From NCBI GenBank assembly GCA_947478535.1, contig CANJXD010000096.1, positions 1-14,117 on the forward strand: 14,117 bases of DNA, written 5' to 3'. Positions within the stretch are counted from its first letter, which is position 1, and each line of letters starts with the position of its first letter. The DNA is from Acetobacteraceae bacterium (lineage in GTDB: Bacteria > Pseudomonadota > Alphaproteobacteria > Acetobacterales > Acetobacteraceae). The notes under the pieces were generated by a model. It was not told where the DNA came from, ran no database searches, and saw nothing but the letters and a program-made list of their open reading frames with translations. The position numbers were made by a program, and so were the translations under genes. Positions 3,658 to 14,117 of the stretch are shown one piece after another.

Positions 3658-3974
3658 ACGGCCACTGGGGAGTGGGCCGGGCGATCTTCGGGGGGGGCGA
3701 GACCCTCGAAGTGCCCTGTTCAGTGGATATCGAACGTACCGCCGACAGCTTCCACGCCTATGCGGTGCCGGAGAATGTGTTTCTCAATCCCGGCGACCAA
3801 GTCATCGTTCACGGCACGACCGGCCGCGTGGAATTCGGCGAACGCTATACCTTCGAGACGCATGCGACCGTGATCCGCGCCAACGCCCTTCAGCGTTTCT
3901 GGACGCAATGGGTCGCGATCTTCGAGCTGACGGAGCTCTACCACTGCGGGTTCGAGCCGAAGGAGGCTGCGTGA
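3654..3974 (+). CDS. Small conserved-looking protein of unknown function in the puh-acsF operon
   Basis: A 106-residue soluble-looking protein with no signal peptide or membrane helix. It starts at an ATGA overlap with puhC and ends at a TGATG overlap with acsF, so it is clearly translated as part of the operon. The interior has a beta-rich pattern: [20 protein letters not shown], then a GDQVIVHG turn, [20 protein letters not shown], and a C-terminal helix rich in aromatics ([23 protein letters not shown]). Small ORFs are often found between puhC and acsF in purple bacteria, and I believe this is one of them, but no function is known to me. Its tight link to acsF suggests a role in cyclase function or complex assembly. 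That is inference only. Two cysteines (in EVPCSV and YHCGF) are visible, with no metal motif. Confidence 0.8.
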
Positions 3975-5119
3975 TGGAAACGCTGATCCTCGGCGGGCCC
4001 AATGAAGGCACGCCCGCACAGATATCCCAGACCTCCGGGGGGGCTCCCAGTGGTACTCCCGGTGGCCGCCCCGATGCCGATGGCGTCGCGACCCGGATGG
4101 CGCTGACGGAGACGGTGCTCTCGCCCCGCTTCTACACCACCGATTTCGACGCGATGGACAAGATCAGCATCGAGCCCGTGCGCAAGCAGTGGGACGAGAT
4201 GATGGCGGAATTCCACGCCGACCCGAATCGCGGGCACTTTACCCGCACAGCAGAATTCGACGAATTCGACATCAAGAAGCTGCCGCAGCCGCTGCAGAAG
4301 GAATTGCTCGAATTCCTCGTCAGCTCCGTCACCGCCGAATTCTCGGGCTGCGTGCTCTACGCCGAGATCAAGAAGCGCGTGACGAATCCCGACATGAAGG
4401 ACATCTTCAGTGTCATGGCGCGTGATGAAAGCCGGCACGCCGGCTTCATCAACGACGCGCTGAAGGACCTTGGCGTCGGCGTCGATCTCGGCTTCCTGAC
4501 CAAGGCCAAGAAATATCACTACTTCCAGCCGAAGTTCATCTTCTACGCAACCTACCTCAGTGAGAAGATCGGCTACGCCCGCTACATCACCATCTTCCGT
4601 CAGTTCGAGCGGCACCCGGAGCTGCGCTTCCACCCCATTTTCAAGTGGTTCGACAACTGGTGCAATGACGAGTTCCGCCATGGTGAGGCCTTCGCCCTGC
4701 TGATGCGGGCGAACCCGCATCTGCTGCATGGCATGAACACCTATTGGGTGCGCTTCTTCCAGCTCGCGGTCTTCGCGACGATGTATGTGCGCGACCACGC
4801 CCGACCTGCCTTTCATGAGGCACTGGGCATGACGCCAACGGAATACGACATGTGCGTCTTCCGCATCACGGAGGAGATCTGCCGCCAGGTTTTTCCCGCG
4901 ACGCTCGATGTCGACAATCCGAGCTTCCTCCGTGGCCTCGAGCGCCTTCGCAAGATCGCCGATGCGATGGGTGCGGCGCGGCGCCAGGGTGGCGTGGTGG
5001 GGGGTGTCAAGCGCATCGGCCTTTCCGCCGCCGCGGCTGCGTCCTTCGCGCGCCTGTATTTCCTCCGCCCCCGTCGCCACGCGTTGCCTGATGACGCGCG
5101 GCTGGCGCCGGCCTGGTAG
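3974..5119 (+). CDS. acsF: AcsF, aerobic (O2-dependent) Mg-protoporphyrin IX monomethyl ester cyclase
   Basis: A 381-residue diiron enzyme that closes the fifth (isocyclic) ring of bacteriochlorophyll using O2, giving divinyl-protochlorophyllide. The family start region [16 protein letters not shown] lies at about residues 49-64. Probable iron ligands are in [15 protein letters not shown] (E122, E131), [10 protein letters not shown] (D151 to H155), EKIGYARY (E197) and [10 protein letters not shown] (DE 232-233, H236). The first ~45 residues are Gly/Pro/Thr-rich and look like an unstructured extension. A second in-frame ATG just before ALTETVLSP is possible. I favour 3974 because AGGAGG (3961-3966) sits 7 bases upstream and the ATG overlaps the preceding stop (TGATG). 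No frameshift or lost ligand is seen, so the enzyme looks functional. This matters because bchE in the same window is broken. Confidence 0.96.
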
Positions 5120-6007: not shown

Positions 6008-7219
6008 ATGAACTACGAATCCTTCTTCCGCACGCAGCTCGACACCCTGCGCCGTGAAGGTCGCTACCGCGTATTCGCGGATATCGAGCGCCGCGCCGGT
6101 GAATTCCCGCGCGCCGTGCGGCATCGGAACGGCCGCACCAGCGAAGTCACGGTATGGTGTTCGAACGACTATCTTGGCATGGGGCAGCATCCGAAGGTTC
6201 TGGCCGCGATGCATGGCGCGCTGGACCGCTACGGCGCTGGCGCCGGCGGTACGCGCAACATCTCCGGCACCAATCATGAGCATGTGCTGCTCGAACGCGC
6301 GCTGGCCACGCTGCATGGCACGGAAGACGCGCTGCTGTTCAATTCCGGCTACATGTCGAACTGGGCGTCGCTGTCCACCCTCGCATCGCGCATGCCGGGC
6401 TGTGTCATCGTCTCCGACGAGATGAACCACGCCTCGATGATCGAGGGCATGCGCCACAGCCGCGCCCAGCGCCGCATGTTCCGCCACAATGACGTGGAGG
6501 ATCTGGAGCGCGTGCTGTCGGAGATCGACCCCTCGGCGCCGAAGCTGGTGGCGTTCGAGAGTGTCTATTCCATGGATGGCGATATCGCCCCCATCGCTGC
6601 CATCTGCGACGTGGCGGAGAAGTATGGCGCCATGACCTATTGCGACGAGGTCCACGGCGTCGGCCTCTATGGCGCGCATGGCGGCGGTGTGACGGATCGT
6701 GATGGGGTCGCGCATCGCCTGACCGTCATCGAAGGCACCTTGGCAAAGGCGTTCGGCGTGATCGGCGGCTATATCGCCGGCAGCACGGCGATGTGCGATT
6801 TCGTTCGCAGCTTCGCCTCCGGCTTCATCTTCTCCACCGCCCTGCCGCCGGCCGTCGCCGCCGGTGCACGGGCGAGCATCGAGCATCTCATGGCCTCGAA
6901 TGTGGAGCGCGAGCGGCTGCATGAACGGGCGGCGACGCTGCGCAAGCGCCTCGATTCCATCGGTGTGCCGCATCTCGACAATCCTTCCCACATCGTGCCG
7001 GTGATGGTGGGGGATCCCGTGGTCTGCAAGGCGATCAGCGACATCCTGCTGGATGAGCATGGCGTCTATGTGCAGCCCATCAACTACCCCACCGTGCCGC
7101 GCGGTACGGAACGGCTGCGCATCACGCCCGGCCCGGTCCATAGCGACGCGGATATGGACCACCTGGTTGCCAGCCTGTCCGCCGTGTGGTCCCAATTCAG
7201 TCTCAGGCGGGCCGCCTGA
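6008..7219 (+). CDS. hemA: 5-aminolevulinate synthase (Shemin pathway)
   Basis: A 403-residue PLP-dependent enzyme that condenses glycine with succinyl-CoA to give 5-aminolevulinate, the first committed step of all tetrapyrroles. Motifs in order: [20 protein letters not shown] at the start, [12 protein letters not shown] (51-62), [17 protein letters not shown] (76-92), [14 protein letters not shown] (183-196), [17 protein letters not shown] (211-227), and the PLP-binding lysine K247 in [16 protein letters not shown]. Length matches alphaproteobacterial HemA (about 400-407). The ATG at 6008 follows a G-run (5996-6001) at 6 bases. An upstream in-frame extension through 5861-6007 is rejected because it overlaps puhE and lacks family similarity. 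The placement here, feeding the pigment operon, suggests that precursor supply is co-expressed with photosystem assembly. A second, housekeeping ALA synthase elsewhere is possible but cannot be seen. Confidence 0.97.
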
Positions 7220-8343
7220 TGGATCTGGCGGCCGGAAGCCTGCCCGCGGCGGGGGAGGGGACGACGGCTACGGATTCTGATGACGTACCGGTGCGCGCGA
7301 CGCGCGCCCGGGCGAAGCCCCAATCGGGGCGTGTTGTCTTCCCCTTCGATGCCATTGTGGGGCAGGAGGAGATGAAGCTCGCGCTGCTGATCGCGGCGGT
7401 CGACCAGTCCGTCGGTGGCGTGCTGGTCTTCGGCGATCGCGGCACCGGCAAATCGACGGCGGTGCGGGCCCTCGCGGCGCTGCTGCCGCCGATGGAGGTG
7501 GTCGCCGGCTGCCGCTTCGGCTGTGATCCGGCGCGGCCTTCCGGCAGTTGTGAACATTGTGCCGGCAAGTCGAGCCTGCGCGCAGCAACCGTGCCCGTCC
7601 CGGTCGTCGATCTGCCGCTGGGTGCGACGGAAGATCGCGTCGCGGGCGCGCTGGATATCGAACGCGCCCTGGCGGAAGGCGTGAAGGCCTTCGAGCCAGG
7701 CCTGCTGGCCCGCGCGCATCGCGGCTTCCTCTACATCGATGAGGTCAACCTGCTTGAGGACCACCTGGTGGACCTCCTGCTCGATGTCGCCGCGAGTGGG
7801 GAGAATGTGGTCGAGCGCGAAGGCATCTCGATTCGCCATCCCGCGAAATTCGTCCTCATCGGTTCCGGCAACCCCGAGGAAGGGGAATTGCGCCCGCAGT
7901 TGCTGGACCGATTCGGCCTGAGCGTTGAGGTCCGCACGCCGACCGACCTGCCGACGCGGGTCGAGGTTGTCCGGCGGCGCGATGATTTCGAACACGACCC
8001 GCACCGCTTTGTCGCGAAGTGGGAGAAGGCGGCCGGTGCGACGCGCCGGCGCATCCTCGCGGCGCGTCGGCTGCTGCCGCGTGTCGTGGTGCCGGACAAG
8101 GCGCTGGAGGATGCGGCGAAGCTCTGCATGGCGCTCGGCACCGATGGGCTGCGCGGTGAACTCACGCTGATCCGCGCCGCCCGGGCGCTGGCGGCGCTGG
8201 AAGGCGCGCGGGGTGTCGCGCTGGATCATCTGAAGCGCATCGCCGCCCCCGCGCTGCGCCATCGCCTGCGCCGCAACCCGCTGGATGAGGCGGTGGCGAC
8301 AACGCGGGTGGAGCGCGCGGTGGCGGAAGTCTTCGGCCCGTGA
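7219..8343 (+). CDS. bchI: Magnesium chelatase subunit BchI (AAA+ ATPase)
   Basis: A 374-residue AAA+ protein that powers Mg insertion into protoporphyrin IX together with BchD and BchH. Family landmarks: FPFDAIVGQEEMKLALL (41-57), Walker A GDRGTGKST (72-80), the GCRFGCDPARP insert with CEHC (98-114), PVVDLPLGATEDRVAGALD (128-146), Walker B LYIDEVNLL (171-179), and GSGNPEEGELRPQLLDRFGL holding the sensor and arginine-finger region. The ATG at 7219 overlaps the hemA stop (TGATG), which argues for coupled translation. This start gives about 38 residues before the first family-like segment, longer than many BchI proteins. A later start is possible, though no better ribosome-binding site stands out. 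The stop overlaps the bchD GTG start. bchH was not seen and is expected to the left, in the bchFNBHLM block. Confidence 0.96.
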   Translation: MDLAAGSLPAAGEGTTATDSDDVPVRATRARAKPQSGRVVFPFDAIVGQEEMKLALLIAAVDQSVGGVLVFGDRGTGKSTAVRALAALLPPMEVVAGCRFGCDPARPSGSCEHCAGKSSLRAATVPVPVVDLPLGATEDRVAGALDIERALAEGVKAFEPGLLARAHRGFLYIDEVNLLEDHLVDLLLDVAASGENVVEREGISIRHPAKFVLIGSGNPEEGELRPQLLDRFGLSVEVRTPTDLPTRVEVVRRRDDFEHDPHRFVAKWEKAAGATRRRILAARRLLPRVVVPDKALEDAAKLCMALGTDGLRGELTLIRAARALAALEGARGVALDHLKRIAAPALRHRLRRNPLDEAVATTRVERAVAEVFGP

Positions 8344-10145
8344 CGGACGACCCGGGCGCTTCGCCCGTGGGGGGTCCGGGCTACTCGCCCGCGCTGGATG
8401 CGGGACAGGCGGCGCTGCTGCTGGCCATTGATCCCGTGGGCCTTGGCGGTGCGGTGTTGCGAGCGGCGCCGGGCTTCGCGCGGGACCGCTGGCTGCGCCT
8501 GCTGCGCGAAGCCCTGCCGGAAGGCACCCCCTGGCGCCGCCTGCCCGCGGGCGTGCCGGATAGCCGCCTGCTCGGCGGCCTCGATCTGACCGCGACATTG
8601 GCCGTCGGCCGTCCCGTCGCGGAGCGCGGCGTGTTGGCGGAAGCCGATGGCGGCCTGGTCATCGCCGCGATGGCGGAACGGATGGAAACCGCCACGGGCG
8701 CCAAGCTCTCCGCGGTGCTGGATGCGCGGGAAGTCGCGGTGCAGCGGGACGGGCTTTCGCTGATGCTGCCCGCGCGGATTGCCGTCGTGGCGCTCGACGA
8801 AGGGGTGGCGGAGGAGGAACAGCCTCCCGCCGCCCTGGCGGAGCGTCTGGCCTTCCGCCTGCGGCTGGAGGATCTGCCCCAGGCCGGCGTCGCGGCGTGG
8901 CAGGGCGCGACGCCTATCGTCGTCCAAGGCGCCCGGGCGCGGCTCCCCTACGTCACCGTGCCCGACGCGGTGACGGAAGCGCTTTGCGCCGCCGGGATCG
9001 CCTTCGGTATCGGCTCCGCCCGCGCGCCCCTGCTGGCGCTGCGTGCTGCCCGTGCCGCCGCCGCGTTGGCGGGGCGGGAGACCGTGGAAGCTGCGGATGC
9101 CGGCCTTGCCGTGCGGCTCGTCTATGGCCCGCGCGCGACGCAATTGCCGCCTGAGGAAGCGCCACCGGAGGCCGAGCCACCGCCGCCAGAGCCGCCTCCG
9201 CCTGAGGCCGAGAACGAGGCGGACCAGCAGCCGGAGGATGGCCCAGACCCGCAGGCCTTGCAGGAAATGCTGCTGGCGGCGACTCGCGCTGCGCTGCCGG
9301 CTGGGCTGCTCGCCGCACTGGGTGTCGATGCGCGCAATGCAGCGCGGCGTGCCGCCGGGCAGCAGGGGCGCGCCGGGCAGCGGCGGAAATCGGCGCAGCG
9401 CGGGCGGCCGATCGGCACCCGTGCCGGCGCTTTGCGGGATGGGGCGCGACTGTCGCTGGTGGAAACGCTGCGCGCCGCCGCGCCCTGGCAGCCGCTGCGG
9501 TTGCGCGAACGCGCGGGTCGCCCCGGGCCACGCATCCTCGTCAAGCGCGACGATGTGCGTCTGATGCGCTTCCAGCAACTGGGCGAGACGACGGCTATCT
9601 TCGTCGTCGATGCCTCAGGGTCCGCCGCGCTCAACCGCCTGGCGGAGGCGAAGGGCGCGGTGGAGATGCTGCTGGCGGATTGCTATGTGCGGCGGGACCG
9701 CGTGGCCGTTGTCGCCTTTCGCGGCTACGCGGCGGATCTGCTGTTGCCACCGACGAATTCCCTGGTTCGCGCCAAGCGGAGCCTGGCCGGCCTGCCCGGC
9801 GGCGGGGCAACACCGCTGGCATCCGGCATCCAGGCGGCTTCGCGACTGGTGGAGGAGGAAGGGCGGCGCGGCCGCACGCCACTGGTCATCCTGCTGACGG
9901 ATGGGCGGGCGAACATCTCCCTGGCCGGTGCGCCGGGGCGGCCGCAGGCGGAAGCCGATGCGTTGGCTGCCGCCGGGCCGCTGCGCGCCGCCGGTATCGC
10001 GGCGCTGGTGGTGGATACGGCGCCGCGCCCCGTGCCCTTCGCGAAGACCCTGGCGACGGCGATGGGCGCGCGTTACCTCGCCTTGCCCGCGGCGAATTCC
10101 GAACGCCTTTCGGCCGCGGTCGCTTCCACCCGCGGCGCGGCGTGA
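8340..10145 (+). CDS. bchD: Magnesium chelatase subunit BchD
   Basis: A 601-residue protein starting with GTG inside a GTGA overlap with the bchI stop. BchD is the platform subunit of Mg chelatase. The N-terminal half is an AAA+-like domain without a recognisable Walker A lysine, as in other BchD proteins, but with segments such as GTPWRRLPAGVPDSRLLGGLDL and LPYVTVPDAV that parallel BchI. A Pro/Glu-rich linker follows (about residues 269-306, with runs like EPPPPEPPPPE). After an Arg-rich basic stretch comes the C-terminal von Willebrand A (integrin I) domain. Its metal site is DASGS at residues 424-428 (DxSxS), with GGGATPLASGI and LLTDGRANISLAG further on. The length is normal. The basic RAGQRRKSAQRGRPIGTRAG region just before the vWA domain is typical. 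Confidence 0.96.
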   Translation: MTDDPGASPVGGPGYSPALDAGQAALLLAIDPVGLGGAVLRAAPGFARDRWLRLLREALPEGTPWRRLPAGVPDSRLLGGLDLTATLAVGRPVAERGVLAEADGGLVIAAMAERMETATGAKLSAVLDAREVAVQRDGLSLMLPARIAVVALDEGVAEEEQPPAALAERLAFRLRLEDLPQAGVAAWQGATPIVVQGARARLPYVTVPDAVTEALCAAGIAFGIGSARAPLLALRAARAAAALAGRETVEAADAGLAVRLVYGPRATQLPPEEAPPEAEPPPPEPPPPEAENEADQQPEDGPDPQALQEMLLAATRAALPAGLLAALGVDARNAARRAAGQQGRAGQRRKSAQRGRPIGTRAGALRDGARLSLVETLRAAAPWQPLRLRERAGRPGPRILVKRDDVRLMRFQQLGETTAIFVVDASGSAALNRLAEAKGAVEMLLADCYVRRDRVAVVAFRGYAADLLLPPTNSLVRAKRSLAGLPGGGATPLASGIQAASRLVEEEGRRGRTPLVILLTDGRANISLAGAPGRPQAEADALAAAGPLRAAGIAALVVDTAPRPVPFAKTLATAMGARYLALPAANSERLSAAVASTRGAA

Positions 10146-10151
10146 CGGGCG

Positions 10152-11021
10152 ATGCCGCAATGGCCGGCATGGGCCCGCGAAGGCCGGGACTGGCCGAATC
10201 GCGAGGCGAGCCGTTTCGTCGAGGCCGCCGGCATCCGCTGGCATGTGCAGGTGATGGGGCAGGGTCCGGTGCTGCTGCTGCTGCACGGCACAGCCGCCGC
10301 GACGCATTCGTGGCGGGACATGCTGCCGCTGCTGGCCGGTCATTTCACCGTGGTGGCGCCGGATCTGCCCGGCCATGGCTTCACCCAGGGCGTGCCCCAG
10401 GCGCGGCTTTCGCTGCCGGGCATGGCGGCGTCCGTCGGTGCGTTGCTGCGGGCGCTGGGGCTGGAACCGGCCTTCGCGGCCGGGCATTCCGCGGGGGTCG
10501 CCATCCTGCTGCGGATGGCGCTGGATGGCCGCATCGCGCCGGATTCCATCATCAGCCTGAACGGCGCCTTGCAGCCGCTGGGCGACCGGCACGCGGCCTT
10601 CTTCACGCGAACGGCCCGGCTGCTGGCCGGGCTGCCCTTCGTGCCGAGCCTGTTTGCCTGGCGGGCGGCGGACCGCGCCGTGGCGGAACGGCTGCTCACG
10701 GATACCGGCAGCCGTATCGATGCCCGCGGCGTCGATCTCTACGCTCGTCTGTTCCGCCATTCCGGGCATCTCGCCGCCGCGCTCGGCATGATGGCGCATT
10801 GGGATCTCGTGCCGCTGTTGCGGGATCTGCCAAGGCTTTCGGCCCGGCTGGTCCTGGTGGTGGGCGCGCAGGATCGCGCCGTGCCGCCGGCGCAGGCCGC
10901 GCGCGTGCACGCCATTCTGCCCGGCGCGCGGATCGTCACCCTGCCGGGCCTCGGTCACCTCGCGCATGAGGAGGCGCCGGCACCATGTTCCGCTTTGATC
11001 ACGGCCGAGGCTGCCCCATGA
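10152..11021 (+). CDS. bchO: BchO, alpha/beta-hydrolase linked to Mg chelatase genes
   Basis: A 289-residue alpha/beta-hydrolase-fold protein. The oxyanion-hole region is LLLLHGTAAATHSWRD (41-56), followed by VVAPDLPGHGFT (67-78). The nucleophile elbow is GHSAG (111-115, serine S113). The acid is probably in LVLVVGAQDRAVPPAQA and the histidine in LPGLGHLAHEEAP near the C-terminus. BchO sits after bchD in most purple bacterial clusters. It is classed with Mg-chelatase-associated hydrolases, but its substrate is not established. It begins 6 bases after the bchD stop with no strong ribosome-binding site, suggesting re-initiation. The ending is short (ITAEAAP). Confidence 0.92.
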   Translation: MPQWPAWAREGRDWPNREASRFVEAAGIRWHVQVMGQGPVLLLLHGTAAATHSWRDMLPLLAGHFTVVAPDLPGHGFTQGVPQARLSLPGMAASVGALLRALGLEPAFAAGHSAGVAILLRMALDGRIAPDSIISLNGALQPLGDRHAAFFTRTARLLAGLPFVPSLFAWRAADRAVAERLLTDTGSRIDARGVDLYARLFRHSGHLAAALGMMAHWDLVPLLRDLPRLSARLVLVVGAQDRAVPPAQAARVHAILPGARIVTLPGLGHLAHEEAPAPCSALITAEAAP

Positions 11022-11043
11022 TGCGGGGCGGGGGGGGAATTTC

Positions 11044-12066
11044 ATGATCGATGACGCCACCGGCGCGGAGGATCTCGCGGCGTGTCATGCGCTGCTGTCG
11101 GGCGGTTCGAAATCCTTCCGCGCGGCTTCGCTGCTGCTGCCATCCCGCATCGCCGATCCCGCGGCCGCGCTGTACGCCTTCTGCCGCGTCGCGGATGATG
11201 AGATCGACCTCGCGGAGGCGACCGAGGCGGCGCTGAATGGGCTGCGGGCGCGGCTCGATGCCATCTATGCCGGGCAGCCGCATGCGCATGCGGCGGACCG
11301 CGCCTTCACCGGCGTGGTAGAGGGCTTCGCCATTCCCCGCGCGCTGCCGGAAGCGCTGCTGGAAGGCTTCGCCTGGGATGCCGAGGGGCGCTTCTACCGG
11401 GACCTGCCGGCCTTGCAGGATTACGCCGCGCGGGTCGCCGCCGCCGTAGGCGCGATGATGACTCTGCTGATGGGCGTCAGGGATCCCGTGGCGATGGCGC
11501 GGGCCTGCGACCTCGGCGTTGCCATGCAGCTCACCAACATCGCTCGCGATGTGGGGGAGGATGCCCGCAATGGCCGGCTCTACCTGCCGTTGGACTGGAT
11601 GCGGGAGGAAGGGGTGCACCCCGCCGATTTCCTGGCCAACCCCATCTTCACCCCGGCCATCGGCCGGGTTGTCCAGCGGCTGCTGGATGCGGCGGATGCG
11701 CTGTATGACCGGGCGGAGCAGGGCATCCCCCTGCTGCCGCGCGATTGCCGGGCGGGCATCGGTGCGGCGCGGCGTGTCTATGCCGAGATCGGCCGTGCGG
11801 TGGAACGCCAGGGGCTCGATTCGATCAGCCGCCGCGCCGTGGTGCCGGCCCGCCGCAAGGCCTGGCTGCTGGCGCGCAGCGTCTCCGCCCTCGCCTTGCG
11901 CCCGGTGCAAAACGCGGCCCCGGCACTGCCCGCGACCCGCTTCCTGGTGGAGGCGGTGGCGAACACGCCGCCACCGCGGGATGCGATGCCGCAGAACCTG
12001 GCGGAGCGCATCACCTGGGCGGTCGAGTTGTTCGACCGGATGGAGCGTGGTCAGCGTGTTGCCTGA
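11044..12066 (+). CDS. crtB: Phytoene synthase (squalene/phytoene synthase family)
   Basis: A 340-residue all-helical prenyltransferase that joins two geranylgeranyl diphosphates to phytoene, the first carotenoid step. The first Asp-rich motif is YAFCRVADDEIDL (DDEID at 51-55) and the second is MQLTNIARDVGEDARNGRLYLP (161-182, containing RDVGED). GGSKSFRAASLLLP near residues 20-33 is also characteristic. The squalene synthases of the superfamily share these motifs, but the photosynthesis-cluster context after bchIDO favours CrtB. The ATG at 11044 follows a G8 run (11030-11037) that probably serves as ribosome-binding site, 22 bp after bchO. The desaturase gene crtI, which is its usual neighbour, is not in this window on either side. 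Confidence 0.93.
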   Translation: MIDDATGAEDLAACHALLSGGSKSFRAASLLLPSRIADPAAALYAFCRVADDEIDLAEATEAALNGLRARLDAIYAGQPHAHAADRAFTGVVEGFAIPRALPEALLEGFAWDAEGRFYRDLPALQDYAARVAAAVGAMMTLLMGVRDPVAMARACDLGVAMQLTNIARDVGEDARNGRLYLPLDWMREEGVHPADFLANPIFTPAIGRVVQRLLDAADALYDRAEQGIPLLPRDCRAGIGAARRVYAEIGRAVERQGLDSISRRAVVPARRKAWLLARSVSALALRPVQNAAPALPATRFLVEAVANTPPPRDAMPQNLAERITWAVELFDRMERGQRVA

Positions 12067-12141: not shown

Positions 12142-12615
12142 ATGCCCCGCTTCCGCTGCACACCCATCCCCACCGAAACCGCCACGCGCTGGCGCGCCAC
12201 CGGGCTTGATGATCGGGGGCTGGCGCTGCATCGCCGCAGCGTCGATGGCCCCGGCTTTCCCTGCCGCCATTGCCTGCGGCTGGGCGAGGTGGGGGAGGAG
12301 ATGCTGCTCGGCAGCTACAATCTTCCCCATCCTCAGGGCGTGTACTGGACGCCGAGCCCGATCTTCCTGCATGCGCGGGACTGCGCTCGCTTCACGGCGG
12401 AGGATGAGATCGCCCCCATCGTGCTGGCGAATGGCATCGTCTCCGTGCGGTCCTACGACGCGGCGGAGCTGTGCCTTTATGACCTCGGTGCGGTGAGCGA
12501 GGGGCGTGAGGTTGCCCCCATCCTGATGCGGGCGCTGGCCGACCCGCGAACCCGCTTCATCAACATCCACACCGCTCGGCCAGGCTGCCTGCTGACGGCG
12601 GTGGAGAAGTGTTAA
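12142..12615 (+). CDS. DUF1203-family protein of unknown function
   Basis: A 157-residue soluble protein. I recognise the pattern of the DUF1203 family: a short N-terminal MPRFRCTPIPTETATRWRAT, then GPGFPCRHCLRLGEVGEEMLLGSYNLP (about 36-62), WTPSPIFLHARDCARF (70-85), VSVRSYDAAELCLYDLGAV (102-120) and, at the end, DPRTRFINIHTARPGCLLTAVE. Cysteines are abundant (C7, the CRHC pair, one in HARDC, and others up to the last residue), but they do not form a known metal-binding motif. The family has no assigned activity that I know of. The gene is probably the last one read from upstream. Its TAA stop falls inside the palindrome preceding bchE. Whether it serves photosynthesis or is a passenger is open. 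Confidence 0.8.
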   Translation: MPRFRCTPIPTETATRWRATGLDDRGLALHRRSVDGPGFPCRHCLRLGEVGEEMLLGSYNLPHPQGVYWTPSPIFLHARDCARFTAEDEIAPIVLANGIVSVRSYDAAELCLYDLGAVSEGREVAPILMRALADPRTRFINIHTARPGCLLTAVEKC

Positions 12616-12630
12616 GATTAATTGACACTT
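12607..12630. promoter_or_regulatory. Putative PpsR/CrtJ operator upstream of bchE
   Basis: The sequence reads AAGTGT-N12-ACACTT, a perfect 6-base inverted repeat containing the TGT-N12-ACA core (12610-12627) of the PpsR/CrtJ aerobic repressor of photosynthesis genes. It lies about 100 bp before the bchE ATG and overlaps the last codons and TAA stop of the DUF1203 gene. PpsR/CrtJ control of bch genes is established in Rhodobacter. That this site works here is inference. Only one such site was noticed, although PpsR often uses pairs. Confidence 0.72.
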
Positions 12631-12726
12631 GAATCGTCAACAAAACTTGACACGCATCAAGGTCGCGCCCTCCCGATCGGGGCGAGACTTGGCCCCAGTA
12701 CCGGTCCGAACCGGCGGAGGGCGTCC
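12616..12726. other. Regulatory intergenic region upstream of bchE
   Basis: The left half (about 12610-12660) is clearly AT-richer than the rest of the window and holds the PpsR-type palindrome and the FNR-type box. The right half is GC-rich and ends with a GGAGGG ribosome-binding site (12716-12721) 5 to 6 bases before ATG 12727. I see no intrinsic terminator for the upstream operon. Confidence 0.65.
12647..12660. promoter_or_regulatory. Putative FNR/FnrL box upstream of bchE
   Basis: The sequence TTGAC-ACGC-ATCAA differs from the FNR consensus TTGAT-N4-ATCAA at one base. FnrL is known to activate bchE under low oxygen in Rhodobacter. The site centre (about 12653.5) is 73 bp before the ATG. 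If it acts from about -41.5, transcription would start near 12695. No strong -10 box is visible at the matching place, as expected for an activator-dependent promoter. It also contains a TTGACA that could act as a -35 element. Confidence 0.65.
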
Positions 12727-13969
12727 ATGCGAATCGTGCTCATCCACCCGAATTATCACTCCGGCGGCGCCGAGATCGCCGGCAAGTGGCCACCCGCCTG
12801 GGTGGCCTACCTCGCAGGCTATCTGAAGGCGGAGGGCTATTCCGACCTCACCTTCATCGACGCGATGACCAGCGACATGACGGATGATCAGGTGCGGGAC
12901 GCGCTCATCCGCCTGAAGCCCGATGTCATCGGCGCCACCGCCATCACCCCCGCGATCTACGCGGCGGAGAACATCCTGAAGCTGGCAAAGGAGACCTGCC
13001 CGAAGGCGGTCACCGTGCTCGGCGGCATCCACGGCACCTTCATGTATCCGCAGGTGCTGGGGGAGGCCCCCTGGATCGACGCGGTGGTGCGGGGCGAGGG
13101 CGAGCAGGTCTTCCTCGACTTGGTGCGCTGCATTGACGAAGGCCGCTGGCCGGCGGACCGCGCGACGGTGAAGGGGATCGCCTACGCCGAGGATGGCAAG
13201 GTGGTGGCGACTCCGGCCTGCCCGCCCATCAAGGACATGGATCGCATCACGCCGGATTGGGGCGTGCTGGATTGGAAGCAGTACATCTACATCCCGATGA
13301 ACACCCGCGTCGCCATCCCCAACCTGGCGCGCGGCTGTCCCTTCACCTGTTCCTTCTGCAGCCAGTGGAAATTCTGGCGCGACTATCGCGTGCGGGACCC
13401 GAAGAAGGTGGTGGACGAGATCGAGGATCTCGTGCGCAACCACGGCGTCGGCTTCTTCATCCTGGCGGATGAGGAACCGACCATCCACAAGAAGAAATTC
13501 GTGGAGTTCTGCGAGGAGCTGGTCGCGCGCAACCTGCCGGTGCTGTGGGGCATCAACACCCGTGTTACCGACATCCTGCGGGATGAGGCGCTGCTGCCGC
13601 TGTATCGCAAGGCGGGGCTGATCCATGTCTCGCTCGGCACGGAAGCGGCGGCGCAGCTGAAGCTCGACCGCTTCAACAAGGAAACCACAGTCGCGCAGAA
13701 CAAGAAGGCCATCCAGCTGCTGCGCGCCAACGGCATTGTCGCGGAGGCCCAGTTCATCGTCGGCCTCGACAACGAGACGCCGGAGACGCTGGAGGAAACC
13801 TATCGCATGGCGCTGGACTGGGACCCGGACATGGCGAACTGGGCCATGTACACGCCCTGGCCGTTCAACGACCTGTTCAAGGAACTCGGCGACAAGGTCG
13901 AGGTGTTCGACTTCTCGAAGTACAACTTCGTGACGCCGATCATGAAGCCGGATGCGATGGACCGCGCCA
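12727..13969 (+). pseudogene. bchE: BchE, anaerobic (O2-independent) Mg-protoporphyrin monomethyl ester cyclase, truncated by an insertion sequence
   Basis: The first 414 codons are intact BchE: the N-terminal cobalamin-binding domain ([20 protein letters not shown], then VLGGIHGTF at about 98-106 and [10 protein letters not shown]), followed by a radical SAM domain with the 4Fe-4S motif CPFTCSFC (C204, C208, C211). The frame continues as family sequence to [16 protein letters not shown] (399-414), then changes abruptly at 13969/13970 into unrelated sequence and stops at 14082 after 37 foreign residues. Purple bacterial BchE is usually well over 500 residues, so roughly 100 or more C-terminal residues are missing. 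The start at 12727 is supported by GGAGGG at 12716 and the typical first residues. The enzyme uses water-derived oxygen under anoxia, doing the job AcsF does with O2. I judge it non-functional, though a partly active truncated protein cannot be excluded. The missing 3' part may lie beyond the insertion. Confidence 0.88.
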
Positions 13970-14002
13970 GTAATTGCTCACCCCCATCCGTTGTAATTTG
14001 GC

Positions 14003-14030
14003 TTGACACGGTCACGGCTGGTTCGATTCA
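14003..14030 (+). promoter_or_regulatory. Possible promoter of the transposase gene
   Basis: TTGACA at 14003-14008 matches a -35 consensus fully. GATTCA at 14025-14030, after a 16-base spacer, is a poor -10. It lies just upstream of the GTG at 14040, which would leave a very short leader. Confidence 0.3.
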
Positions 14031-14039
14031 CCGGCGTGT

Positions 14040-14117
14040 GTGGACCGCGCAACCCTTCTCACGCTCTCGCGCGATGACCTGATTGCCCTGCTCGAAGCGC
14101 AGGCGCAGCAGATCGCC
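14040..14117 (+). CDS. Transposase N-terminus, probably IS66 family TnpC-like (partial)
   Basis: Starting with GTG at 14040, the frame stays open to the last base: 26 codons beginning [20 protein letters not shown] and ending in QAQQIA. This Leu/Gln/Ala-rich amphipathic opening looks like the coiled-coil N-terminus of IS66-type TnpC transposases, which precedes a zinc-finger and DDE domain. Canonical IS66 elements carry tnpA and tnpB before tnpC. Here the frame starts only 70 bp from the end, which would fit a single-gene (ISBst12-like) variant. The catalytic part is outside the window, so this is a moderate-confidence call. Confidence 0.55.

Follow-up and report, generated by a model that had tools for sequence, protein, structure and literature searches.

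Probable interruption of the anaerobic cyclase gene bchE by an IS66-type insertion sequence in the photosynthesis gene cluster of a Falsiroseomonas-like bacterium

We report here a photosynthesis gene cluster in which bchE, the gene of the anaerobic Mg-protoporphyrin IX monomethyl ester cyclase, is with high probability interrupted at codon 415 by an IS66-type insertion sequence (IS). According to the mechanism that we propose, an element of about 1.5 kb with one transposase gene and an 8-bp target duplication, as found in its complete relatives, would have transposed into bchE. The reading frame then ends 37 codons past the break, the anaerobic cyclase is most likely dead, and bacteriochlorophyll synthesis would rely on AcsF, the O2-dependent cyclase, whose gene is intact in the same cluster. 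Such an insertion is an ordinary kind of mutation, and it illustrates a route by which bchE may be lost from aerobic light-using bacteria. The trend towards loss of bchE and bchJ (bchEJ) in aerobic phototrophs is already known; to our knowledge, the steps of this loss have seldom been seen, and the present case is of value because it probably captures an early stage of a gene loss that has occurred more than once.

The DNA analysed is a stretch of 14,117 nucleotides, referred to below as the window, and its sequence points to a Falsiroseomonas-like bacterium as the source. It is a piece of a photosynthesis gene cluster with the gene order bchM (end), lhaA (PUCC family), puhA, puhB, puhC, acsF, puhE, hemA, bchI, bchD, bchO, crtB, a DUF1203 gene and bchE. 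The crtB product scored 405.4 bits against the phytoene-synthase model, below the model cut-off of 500. The DUF1203 gene (12142..12615, forward strand; PF06718, 84.6 bits), which sits between crtB and bchE, had no match in the loci of 18 relatives (E ≤ 1e-10) or in a set of nine loci used to compare gene order (E ≤ 1e-4). The reading frame at 12142-12615 was also considered as bchJ, a candidate ruled out by its assignment to DUF1203 in Pfam.

The truncated bchE gene and the inserted element

The 5' part of bchE (12727..13969, forward strand) starts with ATG at 12727 and consists of 414 clean codons up to 13968 and the first base of codon 415 at 13969; foreign DNA (GTAATTGCTCACCCCC...) follows from 13970. 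The fused reading frame (12727..14082, forward strand) encodes the 414 BchE residues and 37 unrelated residues before it stops. The 414-residue product scored 682.5 bits against the BchE model TIGR02026, above the curated cut-off of 481.35 although it is truncated. It covers positions 1-413 of the 497 profile positions and ends abruptly, short of full length; the full BchE of F. bella extends to position 492. Because the truncated protein passes the cut-off, profile surveys would count it as a working anaerobic cyclase. Both the B12-binding domain (PF02310, 82.0 bits) and the Radical_SAM domain (PF04055, 86.8 bits) are retained.

The window BchE is 91% identical to that of F. bella, and identities to the nearest proteins of Falsiroseomonas, Neoroseomonas and Roseomonas are 87-91% over the 414 residues. 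More distant relatives comprised four B12/radical-SAM proteins, the only ones returned by a search of solved structures, and six plasmid records with 60-80% identity. Among the best 80 of 579 confirmed candidates in the genome collection, the bchE frame goes on beyond codon 414 in every case, and the protein is 519-599 residues long in 79 and 472 residues long in one (L053). A DNA query across the junction (13000-14117) matched 10 of the 15 genomes sampled from the genus of F. stagni, and each match ended near the break (at 13969 in seven genomes, at 13967 in two and at 13952 in one). The original prediction had described a frame clean for 414 codons with its domain motifs, and a fused frame with 37 extra residues and a stop at 14082; these points were borne out, and the comparison with relatives that had been suggested as a check showed bchE continuing past the break.

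The foreign DNA appears to be the left end of an IS66-type element (13970..14117, forward strand). The window spans its first 148 bases, and the transposase gene is cut by the window end. The break coincides with the first base of a 16-nt terminal repeat (GTAATTGCTCACCCCC; 13970..13985, forward strand), which is of the type present in two complete related elements and shows one difference from their termini. Adjoining the IS end is the putative left copy of an 8-bp target-site duplication (CCGCGCCA; 13962..13969), equal in length to the duplication in both complete elements. A transposase gene opens with GTG and runs for 26 codons to the window end (14040..14117, forward strand, 3' open). When compared by eye with the copy in genome G218 and with other relatives, these codons resemble the N-terminus of IS66 transposases; the 26 residues alone gave no Pfam match. 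The GTG at 14040 is preferred to an upstream TTG start because the preceding spacer is, by eye, a single base different from that of the complete element in locus L097. The IS-type end and the transposase-like frame, both noticed earlier from the letters of the sequence, are in keeping with an element of the IS66 type. Past the window end we would expect the right half of a complete IS and, behind it, the missing 3' portion of bchE.

The identification as an IS66-type element draws on the copy in G218 and on the two complete, more distant relatives. Genome G218, from the same family, matches the 148 foreign bases with 97% identity over bases 3-148 (G218:C132:5865-6010); base 2 differs. Its transposase-like frame continues over two contigs and by eye looks like the transposase of the relatives. 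The contigs break inside the element, and in one of them (C151) the transposase frame turns into other sequence after about 215 residues (by eye). The complete elements (L097, 1807-3288, 1,482 bp; L096, 4258-5856, 1,599 bp) are more distant than the G218 copy. Their ends are 16-nt inverted repeats (94% complementary) of the type seen in the window, with perfect 8-bp repeats outside (TAAAATAC and CCCGTAAT). Each has a single transposase gene, whose product hits NF033517, 'IS66 family transposase' (266 and 259.8 bits), and also PF03050. In L096 the right end is present twice in tandem, and the 8-bp repeat pairs with the outer copy. We take the subgroup to be that of IS66-family elements with a single transposase gene (ISBst12-like).

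In a set of 299 genomes from the family to which F. bella belongs (the family sample), five matched the IS end at E ≤ 1e-5. Two of the weaker of these matches led to the complete elements in L097 and L096, and that in G002 was 33 bp long and apparently belonged to another gene. Eight matches from a first search of 18 genomes, 19-33 bp in length, lay by eye in apparently unrelated genes and were dropped. A second, short match in G218 (locus L094, 3359-3407) is a lone 49-bp IS-like end that is 94% identical to the window IS end and is followed by different sequence; some 2.5 kb separate it from the other copy, and it is oriented away from that copy. No plasmid DNA matched the 148-bp IS end, and the 31 plasmid records found at the protein level for the G218 transposase piece were all less than 60% identical; the element is therefore not assignable to a named IS.

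Age and consequences of the insertion

Pairwise dN/dS ratios (NG86) between the 414 codons of the window and eight relatives were 0.105-0.187, and the 28 pairs among those relatives gave 0.039-0.264. The codons are without sign of relaxed constraint in this test, which is coarse, since at a dS of 0.46-0.58 to the nearest relatives a brief unconstrained period would stay hidden. Because the ratios lie within the range of intact relatives, the insertion is probably recent, in agreement with the original prediction. The same ratios, together with 414 codons free of a second lesion, imply that it may also not be fixed. The population could then be mixed, with the insertion in some cells only and the assembler having taken that path. 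This is compatible with the interruption of bchE that we favour, and we regard it as rather unlikely, though worth bearing in mind; a young insertion that is already fixed would look identical.

AcsF and BchE carry out the same ring closure, with and without oxygen, respectively. The gene for the aerobic, O2-dependent enzyme is intact (acsF; 3908..5119, forward strand; TIGR02029, 478.7 bits, profile positions 3-335 of 337), although its true start is probably later in frame, since the match begins at residue 61. As acsF is intact in the same window, loss is expected for the oxygen-independent route alone, and the lesion would be tolerated because the organism makes its pigment under oxygen. 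The available portion of one article ascribes the same ring closure with oxygen to AcsF (PMC12654162), and the available portion of another treats both cyclase enzymes in Elioraea tepida (PMC8781829). It is unlikely that the organism has a second, intact bchE; 33 of the 34 bchE-bearing genomes of the family sample gave one match at E ≤ 1e-150, and one gave two.

The insertion may have polar effects on bchJ and the genes beyond. In five intact loci (L134, L133, L132, L002 and L047) the gene order is crtB-bchE-bchJ-crtE-crtF-bchC, with BchJ identified by TIGR02019. Polarity on these downstream genes would end phototrophy as a whole and not just the anaerobic cyclase. In L047 the gap between bchJ and crtE is only about 90 bases, which would suit such an effect. 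In L002, by contrast, the two genes are about 1.0 kb apart, and in the F. stagni group, which is closest to the window by neighbouring genes, the distance is about 2.4-2.5 kb. The gap in L002 holds an open reading frame on the opposite strand, and crtE there therefore probably has its own promoter. On balance, we consider a complete loss of phototrophy improbable and retain the reading in which the anaerobic cyclase is lost and AcsF remains.

The junction at 13969/13970 could itself be an assembly error that attached an IS end from a different locus to the contig, while the cell has an intact bchE. Assemblers often fail in repeat-type elements, and the window stops 148 bases into one. The join, however, falls on the terminal base of the IS, as transposition yields, whereas a chance chimera would be free to join at any point of the element, and we judge such an error very improbable.

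With 414 of 566 residues retained (F. bella numbering), the protein is shortened by about a quarter at its C-terminus. As judged from the alignment of relatives, the truncation removes a conserved region, though one that is less conserved than the core. Among the best 80 of 579 relatives, residues 415-490 have a mean majority fraction of 0.77-0.81 with 10 of 76 positions invariant (8/26, 2/30 and 0/20 by block), residues 301-414 have a mean of 0.91 with 55 of 114 positions invariant, and the last 76 residues are variable. That the 414-residue BchE with its 37-residue tail still works is hardly credible: both domains are present, the product scores above the BchE cut-off and invariant positions are rarer in the lost stretch than in the core, but residues 415-490 are conserved in the 80 relatives, 79 of which have at least 519 residues. 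With this part of the protein removed, we infer a loss of BchE activity and thus of O2-independent ring closure, the outcome that had been proposed. As a separate observation, the BchE C-termini of L001, L002, L004, L011 and L047 carry two ACGGG(T/S)-type motifs (e.g. KACGGGTEQL) within a tail that otherwise varies; the motif occurs in Falsiroseomonas and relatives, and in single copy in several others.

The region upstream of bchE contains two candidate regulatory sites. The first, TTGACacgcATCAA (12647..12660), fits a pattern that we take to be that of an FNR-type box; it is the sole match to the pattern in the window and ends 66 bases before the start codon. Of the 18 relatives' loci, 7 have the same pattern no more than 300 bases upstream of bchE, including those of F. 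bella, F. oryziterrae and F. stagni. The second is a putative TGT-N12-ACA site (12610..12627), presumably a PpsR/CrtJ-like motif, which has one other match in the window (6336, inside hemA) and was found upstream of bchE in 5 of the 18 loci. In Rhodobacter capsulatus, bchE is activated by FnrL, according to the available part of the source (PMC5643017). The FNR-type box, taken with this activation, would fit a low-oxygen use of bchE.

Distribution and history of bchE in relatives

In the family sample (n = 299), acsF was found in 95 genomes (E ≤ 1e-60) and bchE in 34 (E ≤ 1e-150). Both genes were present in 33 genomes, acsF alone in 62 and bchE alone in one (G022); single absences may be gaps or remnants, because the bchE threshold is strict and genome completeness is not given. 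Among the 15 genomes of the F. stagni genus, 14 had a match for acsF and 10 for bchE; all 10 bchE carriers also had acsF, and G244 had neither gene. In the remaining four genomes (G209, G112, G314 and G315), which have acsF and gave no bchE match, crtB is followed by crtE, and neither bchE nor bchJ was found in the 18-19.5 kb cluster at E ≤ 1e-4. The genes acsF, puhE, hemA, bchI, bchD, bchO, crtB, crtE, crtF and bchC are collinear in all four. A protein search also failed to find bchE in G209 and G112; G314 and G315 were searched genome-wide at the DNA level, and a diverged bchE may exist elsewhere in these two. The window would thus represent a probable first step of loss, and these four species of the same genus a completed absence from an otherwise collinear cluster.

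The history of these losses was examined in two trees. A tree of five neighbouring proteins (window 6008-12063; 19 rows, ultrafast bootstrap), in which the rows of F. oryziterrae, rubea, CECT 9278 and Paracraurococcus comprise only 655-851 residues, places G112 with F. bella and F. oryziterrae (support 100) and unites G209, G314 and G315 in a separate clade (100). As these acsF-only genomes fall in separate clades, at least two separate losses of bchEJ must have occurred if none was regained. In the window, bchE would have been inactivated in addition to those losses.

F. stagni, G310 and G312 group with the window in the same tree (100), whereas the tree of bchE itself (12727-13968) groups the window with F. 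bella, F. oryziterrae and Neoroseomonas, apart from the F. stagni group (99), which falls with Paracraurococcus (94) and the Roseococcus group. This conflict is most simply read as acquisition of bchE from elsewhere by the F. stagni group; alternatively, bchE may have been replaced in the line of the window. Since the bchE tree of the F. stagni group conflicts with that of the neighbouring genes, a re-acquisition can be envisaged there. We offer as a tentative possibility that bchE passes through cycles of loss and regain in Falsiroseomonas, with the window at the start of a loss, the clade of G209, G314 and G315, adjacent to the window and the F. stagni group, at its end state, and the F. stagni group itself having re-acquired the gene from a Paracraurococcus-like donor.

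Irregular bchE genes were also seen in other genomes. In G062 (L112) the frame shifts once near codon 386 on a 3.4-Mb contig, which is either a real frameshift or a sequencing error. In G101 (L113, 5269-6641) the bchE match breaks off near codon 367 and gives way, in another frame, to the 3' part of bchJ, which resembles a deletion. The damaged genes of G062 and G101 fit recurrent loss, but assembly errors are possible, and the two genomes are therefore left out of the main argument. The 472-residue BchE of L053, from a Rubrivivax MAG, ends in a foreign-looking tail near the contig end (about 7360-7499), perhaps another insertion; the tail had no match among the fetched loci. In F. selenitidurans (L072), bchE is located away from crtB, bchJ, crtE, crtF and bchC. 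Genome G218, which carries the closest copy of the IS end, is absent from both the acsF and the bchE lists of the family sample.

Comparison with known systems

The window bchE resembles its counterparts in Falsiroseomonas, Neoroseomonas and Roseomonas in its location downstream of crtB and in the FNR-type box, which is found upstream of several of them; it differs in the break at codon 415 and in the DUF1203 gene that follows crtB. The literature searched held no report of an interrupted bchE, a result that says little about the subscription literature.

Like members of the IS66 family, the complete relatives of the inserted element possess an NF033517/PF03050 transposase, a shared terminal repeat and an 8-bp duplication; the window copy differs in that it is cut at 148 bp and has no close named element. 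For Paracoccus, two IS66 elements of greater length (2,731 and 2,829 bp) are tabulated, with the value 8 in what appears to be the direct-repeat column, as far as the available part of that paper extends (PMC3281130).

The available text of a review of aerobic anoxygenic phototrophs states that bchEJ are missing in the majority of these bacteria and ascribes this to little use under oxygen (PMC12654162). Compared with the losses described in that text, the window is alike in that acsF is kept and the function of bchE is most likely lost, and it differs in that the lesion would be an IS insertion that leaves most of the gene in place, and not a completed deletion.
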